Positions 46,018-53,563 of a DNA stretch of 64,000 nt are shown here, in pieces. The notes beneath the pieces are model-generated. The model was not told the DNA's origin, searched no databases, and saw only the letters and a list, made by a program, of their open reading frames with translations. Numbering within the stretch: the first letter of the stretch is position 1; each line of letters begins with the position of its first letter. The stretch lies in assembly GCF_900198835.1 (NCBI RefSeq), contig NZ_LT900021.1, positions 1,674,001-1,738,000 of the forward strand, written 5' to 3'. A program made the translations under genes and the position numbers. This DNA comes from Thermococcus henrietii (GTDB lineage: Archaea > Methanobacteriota_B > Thermococci > Thermococcales > Thermococcaceae).

Positions 46018-46305
46018 CTATTTCTTTCCTTTTAGTTTCCCAAGCAACTCCCTAATCCTTCTCAGAACAGATTTCTCTTCCTCAACATCCTCGACGAAAA
46101 CACCCTCTATTTCGCCGATGCGCTCCTCGAAGGCCGGCAGGAGAAGGCCGACCAGCTCAAGTGGTTCGAGGCAGGGGCAGTCAACAGAGTAATCGAACGG
46201 TTCTCCGTCAGGAAACTCCGCCCTGAGCGTTAGACCCCCTTTCGCCTTCTTGACCTCAAAACGGGCGGTGCCGTTCTTTCCGACGACCTTTCCCCTGACG
46301 AGCAT
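46018..46305 (-). CDS. Conserved hypothetical protein, 95 aa
   Basis: A small soluble protein: MLVRGKVVGKNGTARFEVK, FDYSVDCPCLEPLELVGLL with a CPC pair, and a charged C-terminal helix. No family recognised. Convergent with mtnA (ends 1 nt apart). Confidence 0.6.
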   Translation of the reverse strand: MLVRGKVVGKNGTARFEVKKAKGGLTLRAEFPDGEPFDYSVDCPCLEPLELVGLLLPAFEERIGEIEGVFVEDVEEEKSVLRRIRELLGKLKGKK

Positions 46306-46367: not shown

Positions 46368-46886
46368 TTAAAGTTCCTTTTCGAGGATGAAGGCCCTCTC
46401 ACGGTAGCCCCTGCGCCTGTACCAGTTCAAGGCAGGGTTGTCGAGCTCGACGCGGAGCGAGACCTTTGAGGCTCCTTTCTCCCTCGCCCAGTCCTCGGCC
46501 CTTTCGAGGAGCGCCGAGCCGATTCCGAGGCCACTAATTTTCGTCTCGACGTCAAGGATGTATGCCGTTGGCACGAAGTCAACGGTGTCCTCCATGATGC
46601 AGACCCAGACGTGGCCGAGGTACCTCCCGTAGGGGTCCACCGCAACAAAAAACTTGTGCTCACCATGAGCCAAGAGGCGGTTTATGACCCTTGAGTAGGC
46701 GGAGACGTAGTCCTCATCGCTCAGTTCCGCCCTTGAAAAGCCCCTGCTGACATCCATGTCGTACTCGAAGATTTCGTCGAGGTAGGACTCGCCGTCAACC
46801 ACTTTGAAGTCCCTCGCCGTCTCTTCAATCGGCGGGAGCTTTTCCTTCGGTTTCTTCCCCAAGAACACCCCTGACAGCCTCCTCAC
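46368..46886 (-). CDS. GNAT-family N-acetyltransferase, last gene of the overlapping four-gene operon
   Basis: A 172-residue (or shorter) GNAT enzyme. The acetyl-CoA site is visible in YILDVETKISGLGIGSALLERAEDWAREKG, in parts: TKISGLGIGSALL (Q/RxxGxG/A-like) followed by VSLRVELDNPALNWYRRRGY. Its start (GTG 46886 or 46868, behind GAGGAGG) lies inside the PP-loop gene, an overlap of up to 62 nt, so translation is coupled. The substrate is probably the product of the upstream enzymes. Confidence 0.8.
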   Translation of the reverse strand: MRRLSGVFLGKKPKEKLPPIEETARDFKVVDGESYLDEIFEYDMDVSRGFSRAELSDEDYVSAYSRVINRLLAHGEHKFFVAVDPYGRYLGHVWVCIMEDTVDFVPTAYILDVETKISGLGIGSALLERAEDWAREKGASKVSLRVELDNPALNWYRRRGYRERAFILEKEL

Positions 46887-48303
46887 GCGTTATCCTCACC
46901 CATTTGTTCCCCTTCAGGTAGGCGTAACCCCTAGTGTAGCCTTCAAAAATCGAGTAGAGTTTTTCTCTGAACTCCTGGGGAATTGCATCAATCCTTGAGC
47001 TTTTCCCGTCGAAGTGCACCATCTCCACGTGCCAGTGGGGCTTTCCATCGAGCGGGAAGTTGGGAAAGCGGCGCTTTATTAGGTAGAGCGAGTGTTCGAG
47101 CTCATCGCGGTCGAGCCTTACGAGGCCCTTCCTCAGCCTTTCAGGGAGCGTGACTATGTGCCAGTCCCTGTACTTAATCAACCTCGGATTGATGCCGTTG
47201 GCGAGCAGGAAGGTAAGGATTCCGTTGCACTTGAAGCAGGTTCCGCAGGGAACGTAGTCGTTGCCCTCCCTGTGGACCGAGTGACAGCTCCTCTGGAGGG
47301 CGAAGAGTTCTGGATAGCGGCTGTGGAGAATTCTCTCCACTATGAGACCCGTCAAAGGCCTCACCGCCGACCACTGGCGGATTTTAAGGCCCCTCTCAGC
47401 GAACCAGCGCGTCATGTAGAGCTCGAAGTCCTGGCTCTGGTCGTAGGTGGCGTTGTAGTGCTCTATCCCGTGAAACGGTTCATAAGAGCGGGGGTCGTCG
47501 TACTCGTTGCCGAAGAGCAGGTTGCCGATGGAGTACTTGTAGAGCAGCGGCAGGAAGGCGAAGGCGTAGCCCTCGAAGAAGAACAGCCTGATTGGATAAA
47601 CCTCGGCCCTCTTCCTCCTCCCGACGCCGTGCAGGATTCTCATGTTCCGCTCTATGAAGGTGTAGAGCCTGTCGGCGTTGCTCCAGACTTTCCTTGTATT
47701 CGGTTCATTCTCCTCGAACCAGCGGTATGCAGGAACCGCCACGCGCCAGTGGGCACCGGATTCGTTGTAGAAGAACGGGTAAACCTCGCAGCCGAGCTCC
47801 TTCATGAGGCCGTAGGTCAAAAGGCTTTCCTTCCCGCCGCTGAGCATGACCGCACAGCGGGAGTAGTCGGGCTCGAAGTCTATCTCCTCTTCCTCGATTC
47901 CCTCTGGAGTTAGCTTCGCCATCGGCTCGGCCATCTCGGGCTTTATCTCCTTCGGCACAAACTCCGGCCTTAGGAACTCGCTCGGATTCGCGATTCTGTT
48001 CACGAAAATATCTCTCGCGGTCACGCGCATCATGTCCTCAAAGAACCTCATGTCCCTGCTATCGAGGGTGAACTCGAACCGAATTTCGGGCGTGAAGAGG
48101 CCGTAGTTTATAGCTGGGACGATGCTCATGAGCTTGGCAAAGGCTTCTATCTTAGGAATCCTCTCGCGGTAGGAGTGAACGAGCTCGTAGCCCTTTTCCT
48201 CGCCGTCAATTCCGAGGACGTAGCGCGCTTTGATGTGCCTCGAAGAAATCCTCGGCCGCTCTATGGCGATGTAGTCAAAGCACTTCAGCTCTGGCAGGCT
48301 CAC
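46825..48303 (-). CDS. QueC-like PP-loop ATPase with N-terminal extension and zinc site
   Basis: A 492-residue protein. Residues 1-145 are an unassigned alpha/beta N-terminal domain. The PP-loop AVMLSGGKESLLTYGLM (154-160) opens an adenylating domain with GNLLFGNEYDDP in the middle. Cys340, Cys353, Cys356 and Cys359 (C-x12-C-x2-C-x2-C) reproduce the zinc site of QueC. QueC adenylates a carboxylate and adds ammonia; a similar amide- or nitrile-forming step on another substrate is inferred. GTG 48303 follows GGAGGTGA. It overlaps both the DUF1611 gene (29 nt) and the GNAT gene. Confidence 0.75.
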   Translation of the reverse strand: MSLPELKCFDYIAIERPRISSRHIKARYVLGIDGEEKGYELVHSYRERIPKIEAFAKLMSIVPAINYGLFTPEIRFEFTLDSRDMRFFEDMMRVTARDIFVNRIANPSEFLRPEFVPKEIKPEMAEPMAKLTPEGIEEEEIDFEPDYSRCAVMLSGGKESLLTYGLMKELGCEVYPFFYNESGAHWRVAVPAYRWFEENEPNTRKVWSNADRLYTFIERNMRILHGVGRRKRAEVYPIRLFFFEGYAFAFLPLLYKYSIGNLLFGNEYDDPRSYEPFHGIEHYNATYDQSQDFELYMTRWFAERGLKIRQWSAVRPLTGLIVERILHSRYPELFALQRSCHSVHREGNDYVPCGTCFKCNGILTFLLANGINPRLIKYRDWHIVTLPERLRKGLVRLDRDELEHSLYLIKRRFPNFPLDGKPHWHVEMVHFDGKSSRIDAIPQEFREKLYSIFEGYTRGYAYLKGNKWVRITREEAVRGVLGEETEGKAPAD

Positions 48304-49369
48304 GGCCCGTCACCTCCCGCCTGGAGAGCCGCAGGATAAGCCTCGCTATATCGCCGACCCCCTGGAGGAAGGGGACGCGCGTCATAATCCCTGTCGCGGC
48401 CTCGATGCGTTTCGCCCATTCAAGGGCCTCATCATCGCTCAGGCCGGAGGAGTTAATCGTTATCGCCACGGGCTTCTTCCCGCTGAGGAGCTCTATGAGC
48501 TGGATGTAAACTTCAAGCGGGGGAATCCTGAATTCGGGAAAGTCGTCGAAGGTCTTCCTCGCGGGGGCGTGCTGGAGGACGATGAAGTCGGGTCTCGCCG
48601 CGGCAATCAGGTCAAAGCCGCCGGGAAATGCCGGATGGAGAAGCGAGCCCTCGCCGTGGGTGACGATTACGTCTGGCCTCTCCTCAACCCAGGCGCGGTA
48701 GAAGACGTCCTCTATCGCCCCCGGCACGAAGTCGTCTATTATCGAGTCCGTGACTATAGCGTACCTGAAGCCCTGCATCCAGCCGGTCTGGCCCATCGCT
48801 ATGAACTCGCTCTTTAAGCCGAGCTCTTTGAACGCCTCGTGGAGCATTATCGCAACGGTTCTCTTTCCTATCGCCGCATCCGTTCCGAGGACGGCCACCT
48901 TTACCGCTTTAACCTCCGCTATCTTCCCGGTGAAGGGAATCCTCATATTGTAGAAAATCTTCCTCACGTCAACTATCTCCACGCCGTAGCGCCTCGCGAG
49001 GTGCTTGAAGTAGGGGTCGTCGCTCAGGAACTCGTGGAGGCCGTTCACAACGCCGAGGCCGTTCCTTATTGCTTCTTCAACGATTTTCCGATAGTTCTCA
49101 GGCAGTTTTCCTCCCGGAGTTGCGACGCCGATGATGAGCCACTTTGCGTTTGGATTCTCGTGGAGCGCCTCCTCCAGAGAGGCATATATCGGGATTCCGC
49201 GCCTTATTCCGTCGAGGACTTCACCGGCGTCCCTACCGGCGAGCGTTGGATCTATTAGCCCCACGATTTTGAACTGCCTCGAATAACGCACGAGGCCGTG
49301 GGCGGTCTTTCCGTCGGTCGTTAGATAACGCCCCTCGGTAAGGATTAGCGCCTCATCCAACCCGGACAC
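48275..49369 (-). CDS. DUF1611 P-loop protein (DgcN-like)
   Basis: A 364-residue two-domain protein: an N-terminal Rossmann-like domain (IVGLIDPTLAGRDAGEVLDG; NAKWLIIGVATPGGKLP) and a C-terminal P-loop domain with VAVLGTDAAIGKRTVAIML (162-171), MGQTGWMQGFRYAIV and VIVTHGEGSLLHPAFPGG. The family includes bacterial DgcN, reported to act in D-glutamate metabolism. Start is GTG 49369 or, better spaced from GGGGGTG, TTG 49360. It overlaps the threonine-synthase-like gene by ~17 nt and the PP-loop gene by 29 nt. Confidence 0.8.
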   Translation of the reverse strand: MSGLDEALILTEGRYLTTDGKTAHGLVRYSRQFKIVGLIDPTLAGRDAGEVLDGIRRGIPIYASLEEALHENPNAKWLIIGVATPGGKLPENYRKIVEEAIRNGLGVVNGLHEFLSDDPYFKHLARRYGVEIVDVRKIFYNMRIPFTGKIAEVKAVKVAVLGTDAAIGKRTVAIMLHEAFKELGLKSEFIAMGQTGWMQGFRYAIVTDSIIDDFVPGAIEDVFYRAWVEERPDVIVTHGEGSLLHPAFPGGFDLIAAARPDFIVLQHAPARKTFDDFPEFRIPPLEVYIQLIELLSGKKPVAITINSSGLSDDEALEWAKRIEAATGIMTRVPFLQGVGDIARLILRLSRREVTGREPARAEVL

Positions 49370-50324
49370 CCCCAGTGACGACGAGGACGAACCGTCCGTT
49401 CCTCAGGTTAAATTTCCTCACGAACTTCACGAGACCGGCCAGCACTAAAGCCGACGCGGGAAGGGGTCTTATCCCTGCCGCGACGCGCATCAGCTCGGCA
49501 CACCTCAGGGCGGTGTCGTCGGCGAATCCGAAGACGTAGCCGTTTGACTCGCGGACGGCTTTCAGTGCTCCATCTGCATCGAAGGACCTCTCCGAAACGA
49601 GGGGCTCGTTGAGTTCAGTCTCCGCGAAGTCTTCGTTTCCATCGCCGTAGAACCTCCTCAGGATTTCGTTGCCAAAAGCGGTGGTCACGCCAACCATCCT
49701 CGGGGCCAGGCCAATGCTCCTGAACCCCTCCCAGAGGCCTGCCATCGTCGTCCCGTTGCCGAGGGGTACGAAGACCGTGGTGGGGTTTACCCTTGACGCA
49801 ATCCAGAGGGCCATCTCGGAGTAGGCCCTTATGTCAACGGCGCGGTTGCTCCCCGGGTTGGCGTCGTAGAAGCCGTTTTCCCTCGCGAAGGCCCTGCTGG
49901 CCCTGACGGCCTCCTCGTAGGTGCCCGGAACCTCTACGACTTCTGCACCGAGTGCCTTCATCTCGGGAAGCCTTTCGAGGGTGTAGCCTCTGGGGACGAA
50001 TATCACCGCTTTCAAACCCGCGAGGGCAGAGTAATAGGCTATCGCGGCGCCGTAGTTGCCGCACGTGCCGACCGTTATCCCCGGAAAACCGCGTTTAACG
50101 GCCTCACCAACGTGGGCAAGGGCAATCCTGTCCTTGTGGGTCCCTGTTGGGTTGACGCCCTCGTAGTCGACGTAGACCTCCCTAACGCCGAGGAGCTCCT
50201 CCAAAACCGTGGCGCGGAAGAGCCTGCCGAGGCCGCCGGGCCCCTCACCTGCCTCGGATTCACTCACTGAAAGGCCTTCTTTGGACCTATAAGATTCGGA
50301 ACGGGCTGTTTTTATGGCTTCCAT
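49353..50324 (-). CDS. Threonine-synthase-like PLP enzyme (fold type II)
   Basis: A ~323-residue PLP enzyme. The Schiff-base lysine is Lys64 in NPTGTHKDRIALAHV, the cofactor loop is VGTCGNYGAAIAYYSAL, and PLGNGTTMAGLWEGF is the phosphate cup. It is shorter than canonical threonine synthase and first in a four-gene overlapping operon, so a beta-replacement on another amino acid is possible. ATG 50324 has GGGGG upstream; a TTTATATA box at ~50378-50385 would allow leaderless initiation at ATG 50357 in the same frame. Confidence 0.75.
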   Translation of the reverse strand: MEAIKTARSESYRSKEGLSVSESEAGEGPGGLGRLFRATVLEELLGVREVYVDYEGVNPTGTHKDRIALAHVGEAVKRGFPGITVGTCGNYGAAIAYYSALAGLKAVIFVPRGYTLERLPEMKALGAEVVEVPGTYEEAVRASRAFARENGFYDANPGSNRAVDIRAYSEMALWIASRVNPTTVFVPLGNGTTMAGLWEGFRSIGLAPRMVGVTTAFGNEILRRFYGDGNEDFAETELNEPLVSERSFDADGALKAVRESNGYVFGFADDTALRCAELMRVAAGIRPLPASALVLAGLVKFVRKFNLRNGRFVLVVTGGVRVG

Positions 50325-50538
50325 TGTTGAATTCCCCCAATATTTGGAATGGGGCATCATCGGGTTGGGCAATGGTATATAAACCTTTCTCCCAGATGAG
50401 GCCGTTTTTGAGGCCGAACTTTGTTCTCAACAGTTAAAAATTTTAGAAAACCGAATAATTGCCGTGAAAATGGAAAAGAAAAGTTTTTAACCCTTTAACC
50501 AACCGTAGAGTGCCCCTGAGCGGGGCGAGGTGGTTGAG

Positions 50539-50700
50539 ATGTATCCACCGAGGAAGAAGGTTCAGCCCAAGGTTGAGGAGGAAGAGGAGGAGTTTGACCC
50601 CCTCGAGAGCGTCGAGGGCGCCTACGAGGACTTCGACGAATACGAGGAAGACTGGGAGGACGAGGAAGAGGACTGGAGCTGGGATGACGACGAGGACTGA
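50539..50700 (+). CDS. Very acidic small protein, 53 aa
   Basis: MYPPRKKVQPKVEEEEEE opens the protein, and the remainder is Asp/Glu/Trp-rich (EDWEDEEEDWSWDDDED). More than half of all residues are acidic, with a short basic start. ATG 50539 follows GAGGTGGT and a TTTTTAACCC promoter box lies at ~50485. No known domain; such proteins can be nucleic-acid mimics or assembly chaperones. It stands alone between a divergent operon and an MFS gene. Confidence 0.7.
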   Translation: MYPPRKKVQPKVEEEEEEFDPLESVEGAYEDFDEYEEDWEDEEEDWSWDDDED

Positions 50701-50739: not shown

Positions 50740-52017
50740 ATGGCGGTCAGTCAGAAACGCAAGAGAACGAACCTGAAGAAGCTTGAGAGAAAGAGCCAGA
50801 TGAGACACCGGCCGAATCCGGAGAGGTGGTTTTACTCCTTCATCCCATTCAAGGTCTCAACCGGCGGAGCGGCTCCCCTGATTCCCCTCCTCACAATGGA
50901 GCTCGGTGGTGGCCCGAGGGAAGTCGGCCTCGTGAACGCGGTCGGAAGTCTGTCCTCGATGCTCGGTGGCCTCTTCTGGGGAAAGCTCAGCGACAGGCTC
51001 AACAGGCGGAAGGTCTTCCTGATACTCGGTTTCCTCGGGACGGCGCTGTCGACATTTCTGTTCGCCCTCGCGGGGAGCATTCCATCGGTGGTTTTCGCAA
51101 ACGCAATCTACACCTTCTTCATAGCCGCGACCGTCCCGATTCCCGTCCTCATAATAACCAAGGTCTTCCGCCTTGAGGACTGGGACTGCGCCATAGGGAG
51201 GTTCAACGAAATAGGTGGCTGGGCGTGGGTGCTCGGGCTCGTGATTGGCTTCATCCTGTCTCACCTGCTCCCCATCAGGTGGATTTTCGCCGTTCTTGGC
51301 CTAATCGGTCTGCTCTCCGTCCCGTGGGGAATGCGGACGATAAGGGAGGTCCCGCTTCACCTCGACAGAAAAGTCCTCGGGGTCTACGCGGGCTACGTCG
51401 TCGAGAAGTTCCGCTACCTCCCGAACTTTATAACGCACCTCCCAAGGTTCTCCACCTGCGGTTTTGGGAGACTCTATATCTCGGCCCTCCTCTTCTGGTT
51501 TGGGGCCATGCTCTACTTCACCCAGTTCCCCGTCCTGCTGAAGGCAAGGGGCTTCGGGGCCTCGGTGCTCTACCTGATGAGCATAGGGAACTCCTCAATC
51601 TCGGCCTACATGTACACCCGCGTGGGGAGGCGCGTTAGGGAGAGGGGTGGTTACGGAACACTCAGGTTCGGTCTCCTCCTCAGGGGACTCGCGTTCCTCC
51701 TGCTCGCTGTTGCAACGCCCACCAAGGGGCCCCTATTCCCGGTTCTCGCCTTCGTATCCTACTTCCTCGCGGGCTACACGTGGGCATTCATCGGCATATC
51801 AACGACCGCCGTAATCTCCCGCCTCGCCCCGCCCGAAAAGAAGGGGACGCTGATAGGGGCCTACAACCTCGTGAGCTCCCTCGGGGCCATAGCCGGCAAC
51901 CTGACGAGTGGTTTCGTCGTTTCACTGCTCGGCTTTGCCGGCAACTTCGCCCTCGCCTCCGTCTTCCTCTTCCTCTCGCTCCTTCCCATAGTCCGTCCGA
52001 AGGCTAAAGCTCGATAA
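50740..52017 (+). CDS. MFS transporter
   Basis: A 425-residue major facilitator protein with about 12 transmembrane segments after a basic N-terminus (KRKRTNLKKLERKSQMRH). The loop 2-3 motif GGLFWGKLSDRLNRRKVFL and a second one in the other half (APPEKKGTLIGAYNLVSSLG) mark the family. The substrate is unknown. Its last 14 nt overlap the convergent truncated metallo-hydrolase gene. Confidence 0.82.
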   Translation: MAVSQKRKRTNLKKLERKSQMRHRPNPERWFYSFIPFKVSTGGAAPLIPLLTMELGGGPREVGLVNAVGSLSSMLGGLFWGKLSDRLNRRKVFLILGFLGTALSTFLFALAGSIPSVVFANAIYTFFIAATVPIPVLIITKVFRLEDWDCAIGRFNEIGGWAWVLGLVIGFILSHLLPIRWIFAVLGLIGLLSVPWGMRTIREVPLHLDRKVLGVYAGYVVEKFRYLPNFITHLPRFSTCGFGRLYISALLFWFGAMLYFTQFPVLLKARGFGASVLYLMSIGNSSISAYMYTRVGRRVRERGGYGTLRFGLLLRGLAFLLLAVATPTKGPLFPVLAFVSYFLAGYTWAFIGISTTAVISRLAPPEKKGTLIGAYNLVSSLGAIAGNLTSGFVVSLLGFAGNFALASVFLFLSLLPIVRPKAKAR

Positions 52018-52288: not shown

Positions 52289-53563
52289 ATGAAGAGAAGC
52301 GTGACGGTAAAACTCCAGCCCTCCAAAGAGCAGGCGAAAATTCTCCACCAGTTAGCCGACACTGGAGCCAAAGTCTGGAACCGAGTAAACTACCTGAGAA
52401 TACAACAATACTTCAAAGAACAAATCGTGGACTTCAATTCAACCGAGAAGACCGTTTATGAGGAGTTTAAGCGGGAAATTGGCTCTGCAACTGTCCAGCA
52501 AATAGCGAGGAAGAATTCGGAAGCCTGGCGGAGCTTCTTCTCCCTCCTCCGCAAAAAGCGTAACGGAGAACTCCCCAACTGGCTTAAGCCAAAACCACCA
52601 AATTACTTGAAAGAAGACGGGAGGAGGAAACCATTAATCGTCCTGAGAAACGACCAATACAAAATTGAAGGAAATAAGCTCATTCTAAAAGGCTTTGGCA
52701 AATTCAAACGCCTTGAAATCCAATTCAAGGGAAGAATACACTTGAAGGGCAAGCAAGGGCGGTTAGAAATCACTTACGACCCTGTAAAGCGGAAATGGTA
52801 TGCCCACTTGAGCGTTACCGTCGAGGAAAAACTTGAAGGTGAGAATTGGATTAAACTCCCGAGAACTCCAAAGGGAAGCCTTTCGGCAGGAATTGACCTC
52901 GGAGTTAACAATTTGATGGCCGTTTATGTGGAAAACGGGGAAAGCTTCCTTGTGAATGGAAGACCGTTAAAGAGTATTGACTTCTACTGGCGGAGAAAAA
53001 TCGCTGAGTATCAGTCAAAACTCAACAAGTCTGGAGCAAAGACGAGCAGGAAACTCAAGAGAATGCATGAGAAGTCCAAACTTCAGGCGAGGCACTACAT
53101 CAACACGGTAGTTAGACAAACGGTCAAGAAGCTCTACGAGTTAGGCGTTTCTAAAATAGTGGTTGGTTATCCTAAGGGCATAGCTCGGAATTCTGATAAG
53201 GGCAAAAGGCAGAATTTTATCCTCTCTCACGTTTGGCGGTTTAATTACGTTATCAAACGCTTGACTGAGGTTGCGGAGGAGTATGGTATTCGGGTTTTGG
53301 TTGTGAATGAGGCTTTCACTTCTAAGACCTGTCCCGTTTGCGGGAAGCCTCATGAAGGGGCTCGTTTTGTTCGTGGGTTATTTAAGTGTCCCGCGACGGG
53401 GCTTGTCTTTAACGCGGACTTGGTTGGAGCGTTTAATATTTTGAAGAAGATTGTCAAAACCATAACCCCGAATCTGGGCGGTTTGTACGCTCAGAGGAGG
53501 GGTAATTGGCCGAAGGCCCGGCCAGAGGGGTTCGAAGACCCACTTTTTAGTGGGTTTGAATGA
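52289..53563 (+). CDS. tnpB: TnpB-type RNA-guided nuclease homologue with altered RuvC-II
   Basis: A 424-residue TnpB. The N-terminal OrfB helix-turn-helix (VTVKLQPSKEQAKILHQLA) and RuvC-I Asp203 (GIDLGVNNLMAVYV) are intact, and RuvC-III Asp377 is in FNADLVGAFNIL. At the usual RuvC-II glutamate the sequence reads KIVVGYPKGIARNSD, with Gly293 in its place; Glu341 in VVNEAFTSKTCPVC may substitute. The zinc finger has Cys348, Cys351 and Cys367 but the fourth position is Thr/Gly (CPATG). It may therefore be weak, rearranged or inactive. Confidence 0.88.
   Translation: MKRSVTVKLQPSKEQAKILHQLADTGAKVWNRVNYLRIQQYFKEQIVDFNSTEKTVYEEFKREIGSATVQQIARKNSEAWRSFFSLLRKKRNGELPNWLKPKPPNYLKEDGRRKPLIVLRNDQYKIEGNKLILKGFGKFKRLEIQFKGRIHLKGKQGRLEITYDPVKRKWYAHLSVTVEEKLEGENWIKLPRTPKGSLSAGIDLGVNNLMAVYVENGESFLVNGRPLKSIDFYWRRKIAEYQSKLNKSGAKTSRKLKRMHEKSKLQARHYINTVVRQTVKKLYELGVSKIVVGYPKGIARNSDKGKRQNFILSHVWRFNYVIKRLTEVAEEYGIRVLVVNEAFTSKTCPVCGKPHEGARFVRGLFKCPATGLVFNADLVGAFNILKKIVKTITPNLGGLYAQRRGNWPKARPEGFEDPLFSGFE

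Follow-up and report, generated by a model that had tools for sequence, protein, structure and literature searches.

A co-inherited archaeal gene module of a PLP enzyme, a DUF1611 protein and a PP-loop protein with predicted QueC/QatC fold: a candidate amino-acid-tailoring pathway

Introduction

What could be made by a pyridoxal 5'-phosphate (PLP) enzyme, a DUF1611 protein, a PP-loop protein reminiscent of QueC and an acetyltransferase whose genes are packed so tightly that each overlaps the next? This question is raised by a locus of Thermococcus henrietii (complete genome, 2.16 Mb), which was analysed within a window, i.e. the whole stretch of 64,000 nucleotides from contig NZ_LT900021.1 (positions 1,674,001 to 1,738,000); all coordinates given below refer to this window. 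Reading of the sequence and its open reading frames (ORFs) reveals four overlapping ORFs on the minus strand between 46368 and 50324, with overlaps of 17, 29 and 62 nt, in the order PLP enzyme, DUF1611 protein, PP-loop protein and GCN5-related N-acetyltransferase (GNAT):

49353–50324, minus strand: fold-type II PLP enzyme with PALP domain (Pfam), 323 aa from the ATG at 50324; putative racemase or other enzyme acting at C-alpha
48275–49369, minus strand: protein of the DgcN superfamily with DUF1611_N (Rossmann-like) and DUF1611_C (P-loop) domains (Pfam); putative amino-acid N-acyltransferase
46825–48303, minus strand: PP-loop protein with predicted QueC/QatC fold, 492 aa, SGGKES loop and C-x12-C-x2-C-x2-C metal site; putative ATP-dependent carboxylate-amine ligase
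46368–46886, minus strand: GNAT acetyltransferase with Acetyltransf_1 domain and 1vkc as relative of solved structure; operon member in Thermococcales only

An earlier reading of the same DNA (the original prediction) had described these four ORFs, and all of them were found at the positions it gave. Its suggestion that the four proteins are made in a fixed ratio is plausible in view of the overlaps.

Distribution and inheritance of the gene module

The PLP enzyme, the DUF1611 protein and the PP-loop protein constitute a co-inherited module of Thermococcales and Thermoplasmatota. When genome contigs were scanned with the PP-loop family, three Thermoplasmatota relatives were found (35–38% identity); at these three loci the PLP and DUF1611 genes are located upstream of the PP-loop gene with their order unchanged and with touching or overlapping ends, and a GNAT gene is absent. 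The distribution survey covered Thermococci and Thermoplasmatota; the scan across all genomes used two peptide patterns only, and other phyla may carry the cassette unseen. A match to the PP-loop family was obtained in 68 of 390 Thermoplasmatota genomes (at least two matches being weak fragments) and the three-gene core recurs in about 66. At the 43 Thermoplasmatota loci that were read the DUF1611 gene is adjacent in essentially all cases (43/43) and a PLP gene is present in 40. Five of six genomes tested possess a PLP ortholog elsewhere, namely G230 and G442, which represent two of the three loci devoid of the PLP gene, and three further genomes; solely G376, a 1.2 Mb assembly, has none. These unlinked copies retain the same motifs, and their neighbours (FtsZ-like, SpoU methylase, Cdc6) are uninformative save for an amino-acid permease at one locus (L191). 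Counted from two tables for a sample of 233 genomes, 44 of the 46 genomes with a PLP ortholog also carry the PP-loop gene. Moreover, the pairwise distances of the three proteins correlate over 57 loci (r 0.82–0.87), with Thermococcales forming one clade in this comparison. Linkage of the PLP gene, its unlinked orthologs, the co-presence in 44 of 46 genomes and the correlated distances therefore define the core as PLP enzyme, DUF1611 protein and PP-loop protein, and the genes almost certainly form one functional module.

Among 115 Thermococci genomes the PP-loop gene is present, intact or as a remnant, in 27 genomes of four genera, and 24 of the 25 genomes with a DUF1611 gene also have it. This linkage is far beyond chance (Fisher p ~2e-20, calculated for genomes that are phylogenetically non-independent). 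The full order PLP–DUF1611–PP-loop–GNAT is kept in about 20 Thermococcales genomes, including the loci that were read in detail, and the junctions are overlapping or nearly touching in most homologues; the usual neighbour of the operon in Thermococcus is mtnA. Several genomes reveal stages of decay. All four operon genes are broken in G049 (L054:6184–10653), where a divergent transporter gene of the major facilitator superfamily (MFS) and a small acidic ORF decay alongside. In G110 (L044:5226–5561) most of the PLP gene was lost by a large internal deletion and the DUF1611, PP-loop and GNAT genes look intact. Only a fragment of the PP-loop gene is left in G032 and G031, and only the start of the PLP gene in G075 (L190). 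In Thermococcales the operon is a co-inherited, repeatedly lost accessory pathway that decays as a unit. Hence the co-occurrence survey recommended in the original prediction did not find the genes scattered and unlinked in relatives but linked in both Thermococcales and Thermoplasmatota. The prediction of one four-gene unit holds as a co-inherited gene set and has to be corrected for the GNAT, which is absent from the conserved core.

Properties of the core proteins

The PLP enzyme had been described as threonine-synthase-like, with Lys64 singled out; this lysine is the Schiff-base residue. It shares with threonine synthase the type II fold, Lys64, Asn90, the region of the PLP phosphate loop and Thr317 near the C-terminus, and it reaches the NCBIfam model PRK06381 "threonine synthase" (364 vs 266 bits). 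This model appears to describe this very PLP family, because Thermoplasmatota members score still better. In contrast, the thrC model TIGR00260 is not reached (84.7 vs 167.1 bits); of the other proteins encoded by this genome, two paralogues do reach it, with 230 and 175 bits. A profile alignment to four threonine-synthase structures shows that the NPxR-EGQKT segment is missing. The motifs TG(T/S)(H/Q)KDR and TCGNYG are a further difference from threonine synthases. The arginine of NPxR in threonine synthase binds the substrate phosphate; at the position two residues after the proline glycine occurs in 58 of 59 relatives and arginine in none. Pfam confirms the PALP domain, and Lys64 of the former description stands; O-phosphohomoserine, proposed as a candidate substrate, is unlikely because the Arg/Lys signature of threonine synthases is missing. 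Besides Lys64 also Cys88 is invariant in all 59 homologues. It directly precedes the PLP-binding Gly-Asn of the asparagine loop, and Cys88-Gly-Asn aligns by motif with Ser84-Gly85-Asn86 of serine racemase, another fold-type II enzyme, in which Ser84 is the second catalytic base (PMC6333871). Both enzymes would thus have a potential second-base side chain at this position. They differ in cysteine for serine and in the phosphate loop (GNGTT), and identity in structural matches is about 19–20%.

The assignment of the second protein to DUF1611 is confirmed, with both models well above their gathering scores (PF07755, 202 vs 25 bits; PF17396, 113 vs 23 bits). This family includes DgcN which is, according to annotation and a secondary source (PMC12363236), a D-Glu N-acetyltransferase acting together with the N-acetyl-D-Glu racemase DgcA. 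The DgcN–DgcA module resembles the cassette in the pairing of a DUF1611-family gene with a gene for an amino-acid racemase or epimerase, and DgcN has the same N- and C-terminal domains and the same P-loop and H-P-x-Y motifs as the window protein. In the cassette, unlike in that module, the partner is a PLP enzyme of fold type II and not a racemase of enolase fold, and there is an additional putative ATP-dependent ligase.

The context of DUF1611 outside the cassette was inspected at 20 archaeal loci (19 from Thermoplasmatota, one from Thermococci) and 10 plasmid loci. At 7 of the archaeal and 6 of the plasmid loci the DUF1611 gene has, within a few genes, a neighbour that encodes a racemase or epimerase with a different fold, namely

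ornithine-racemase-like: L143, L154
alanine/ornithine racemase: L155–L157
dipeptide epimerase or DgcA: L142, L146, L151–L153, L160, L162, L164

A D-aminoacylase occurs once, at L160 alongside the epimerase, and a DgcA-like epimerase lies near four related Thermoplasmatota cassettes. This recurrent pairing points to D-amino-acid chemistry, a possibility that the original prediction had raised solely by mentioning DgcN, and by analogy it is plausible that the PLP enzyme takes the place of the racemase in the cassette.

Two side observations concern these loci. The ornithine-racemase-like genes beside DUF1611 (L143:1070–2170 and L154:1167–2219) are 89% identical between G266 (Thermoplasmatota) and G019 (Thermococci), which suggests a recent inter-phylum gene transfer or a shared contaminating contig. 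The DgcA-like epimerase near the cassettes is accompanied by a 458-aa protein, the pair (L123:2967–5495, also L118, L122 and L125) being convergent to the cassette; this protein has no Pfam or NCBIfam match and by eye resembles a zinc carboxypeptidase.

The PP-loop protein yields no Pfam match at E 0.1 (including PF06508), no NCBIfam match and no PADLOC match; a profile search with its family against the PDB gave no relative and a plasmid search no match. Its AlphaFold2 model (predicted local distance difference test score 88.8) is most similar in Foldseek to QatC (9y01, E 5e-5), Cap9 (9nto) and QueC (2pg3 and 3bl5) among PDB entries, with modest TM-scores of 0.36–0.65. Over 64 homologous sequences the four cysteines (C340-x12-C353-x2-C356-x2-C359) are invariant, and the SGGKES loop and an ESGxHW motif are invariant or nearly so. 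The 492-residue protein with a QueC-type PP-loop and cysteine site is therefore as originally described. With QatC (of qatABCD), Cap9 (of type IV CBASS, a cyclic-oligonucleotide-based antiphage signalling system) and QueC it shares the predicted fold, the SGGxxS phosphate loop and the CxxCxxC metal site with an upstream cysteine, and with QatC also N- and C-terminal extensions. Predicted fold, PP-loop and four-cysteine metal site place it in the QueC/QatC fold superfamily. Judged from the model it is probably an ATP-dependent ligase acting in the manner of QueC and QatC, with which the predicted activation of a carboxylate fits. By sequence, however, it falls outside the QueC and QatC families, having no PF06508 or PADLOC match and lacking the signature motifs of both: of the motifs published for QueC (YxQxHxxE, VPxRN and YPDC) and for QatC (PMC13329287) none is conserved among the 64 sequences, and for this reason a 7-deazaguanine substrate is unlikely. 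Also the gene context differs. This PP-loop gene accompanies genes of amino-acid enzymes rather than queD, queE or genes of defence systems, and no defence genes were seen in the operon neighbourhoods read in Thermococcales and at the 43 Thermoplasmatota loci.

Associated and neighbouring genes

The fourth operon protein is an acetyltransferase as predicted (Acetyltransf_1, 46.7 vs 20.7 bits, above cut-off). It is an addition of Thermococcales outside the conserved core. A RimI-like GNAT convergent to some Thermoplasmatota cassettes was considered as its counterpart and rejected, since its best match is RimI and it is encoded on the other strand. Upstream of the operon the following elements were located:

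50374–50385, minus strand: TATA-like element GGTTTATATACC, read by eye, which precedes the ATG of the PLP gene by about 50 nt
50539–50700, plus strand: small, very acidic, Trp-containing protein of 53 aa (MYPPRKKVQPK...DWSWDDDED), divergent from the operon; associated, not obligatory
50740–52017, plus strand: MFS transporter, divergent from the operon; associated, not obligatory

The position of the TATA-like element favours ATG 50324 as start of the PLP gene over a possible alternative TTG at 50372. The acidic protein (49–70 aa among homologues), encoded directly upstream of the MFS gene, and the MFS protein are found divergent from the operon at nearly all Thermococcales loci, the acidic ORF being adjacent in 21 of 24. 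This ORF looks coding, because its differences concentrate at the third codon position (245/344/1612 for positions 1/2/3). No comparable ORF was found near Thermoplasmatota cassettes, and the MFS protein gave no match in the PDB. Close MFS orthologs (at least 65% identity) occur in about 22 genomes, mostly operon carriers; by our own count 5 of the 6 operon genomes of genus g4 contain one and no genome of this genus without the operon. Both genes are kept without the operon in G055 and G075 and were thus rejected as obligatory parts: their association with the operon is strong but not obligatory.

Further neighbours are mentioned here as observations in their own right. A 95-aa ORF (46018–46305, minus strand) without Pfam match lies just downstream of the GNAT gene, recurs in this position in several genomes of Thermococcus and is kept in G032 beside the PP-loop remnant. 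The locus is adjoined by an ORF for a TnpB-like transposon-associated nuclease (52289–53563, plus strand), of which an 82% identical copy is located close to the operon in L052. In Thermoplasmatota the cassette is flanked by dtdA (D-aminoacyl-tRNA deacylase), Tsr3 and often the gene for valyl-tRNA synthetase (ValRS) at about 28 of the 43 loci, in at least two arrangements (L062, L063, L064, L095–L129). In 15 cassette-less genomes dtdA lies beside neither Tsr3 nor ValRS, these control loci being possibly from distant lineages. As dtdA is near-universal (362 of 390 Thermoplasmatota genomes) only its adjacency is unusual, and it was downgraded as evidence for D-amino acids.

Proposed pathway and alternative explanations

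The locus may represent a racemase–DUF1611-type module with its own ligase branch; its parts belong to known superfamilies. In the literature on DUF1611, DgcN, QueC-like proteins and D-amino acids of Thermococcales no matching pathway was found, in agreement with the original statement that no described pathway has this combination. We tentatively propose, with rather less than even confidence, an archaeal amino-acid-tailoring pathway comprising C-alpha chemistry (probably racemisation), N-acylation, ATP-dependent amide formation, acetylation by the GNAT and transport by the MFS protein. The PLP enzyme would work on the alpha carbon of an amino acid and would most likely be a racemase or epimerase, with Lys64 and Cys88 facing PLP from opposite sides. 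The amino acid so formed, probably a D-amino acid, would be N-acylated by the DUF1611 protein in the way that DgcN acts on D-Glu, and the QueC-like protein would activate the carboxylate with ATP and couple ammonia or another amine, forming an amide or, less likely, a nitrile. In Thermococcales the GNAT would contribute an acetylation, and product or precursor could be moved across the membrane by the divergent MFS protein. The more specific version, namely an undescribed pathway in which a Lys/Cys PLP racemase supplies a D-amino acid, the DUF1611 protein N-acylates it and a ligase of QatC fold not covered by PF06508 turns it into an amide or links it with an amine or a partner peptide, is possible and more doubtful.

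Several points weigh against the proposed pathway. By sequence and fold the PLP enzyme is nearest to threonine synthases and not to racemases. The DUF1611 protein remains far below the cut-off of the DgcN model NF041892 (150 vs 480 bits) and DgcN membership is not claimed, and 13 of the 20 archaeal DUF1611 loci outside the cassette have no racemase close by. Order of the steps and direction (synthesis or breakdown) are guesses.

The first of these points is the basis of the best surviving alternative, a pathway of the type outlined in the original prediction. In it a beta- or gamma-replacement catalysed by the PLP enzyme would yield an unusual L-amino acid and DUF1611 protein, ligase and GNAT would modify this product, so that no D-amino acid arises. 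In sequence and in predicted fold threonine synthases rank first, ahead of deaminases and of O-ureidoserine and cysteine synthases, and the score for PRK06381 is in line with it. Nevertheless we regard it as unlikely, since thrC is not reached in spite of two paralogues in the same genome that do so, NPxR-EGQKT is missing, and it accounts neither for the invariance of Cys88 nor for the racemase context of DUF1611.

That racemase context could also mean that D-amino acids are scavenged or detoxified, in the manner of the DgcN–DgcA route, which is catabolic; imported D-amino acids or peptides would be converted and the MFS protein would be the importer. The D-aminoacylase at L160, the DgcA-like epimerase near four cassettes and the adjacency of dtdA at 28 of 43 loci would suit this explanation, but a route that is purely catabolic would not be expected to include a ligase that spends ATP and, given the near-ubiquity of dtdA, adjacency alone counts. 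It is judged distinctly improbable.

Very little probability is assigned to a peptide or carrier pathway, in the style of ribosomally synthesised and post-translationally modified peptides or of amino-group carriers, where the ligase would couple small molecules to the acidic protein or modify its carboxylates and the MFS protein would export the product. QatC and Cap9 do modify protein termini (PMC13329287, PMC12424860), a PP-loop-containing asparagine-synthetase-like enzyme forms a C-terminal nitrile on a peptide (PMC13060819), and the conserved acidic ORF looks coding and is mostly adjacent; however, acidic ORF and MFS gene persist without the operon and Thermoplasmatota cassettes have no comparable ORF. 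Modification of a nucleobase or of RNA, with the QueC-like protein acting on 7-deazaguanine or another base, is highly improbable: it would be suggested by the QueC fold and by the neighbours dtdA, ValRS and Tsr3 in Thermoplasmatota, a cluster unseen around dtdA in the cassette-less genomes, but the QueC motifs are not conserved, the partners are amino-acid enzymes and the neighbours in Thermococcales are mtnA and the MFS gene.

Biological meaning

The proposed amino-acid-tailoring pathway brings DUF1611 and the ligases of QueC/QatC type, two families about which little is understood, into one defined three-gene pathway that is testable in genetically tractable Thermococcus. The label "threonine synthase" (PRK06381), under which databases list the PLP family of two archaeal phyla, would have to be corrected. 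A D-amino-acid or N-acyl amino-acid metabolite of archaea could come to light, and also a reaction of the QueC fold beyond nucleobase synthesis and phage defence. If a Lys/Cys racemase indeed cooperates with a ligase of QatC fold, the QueC fold would have a small-molecule branch, and archaea a native metabolite derived from a D-amino acid.

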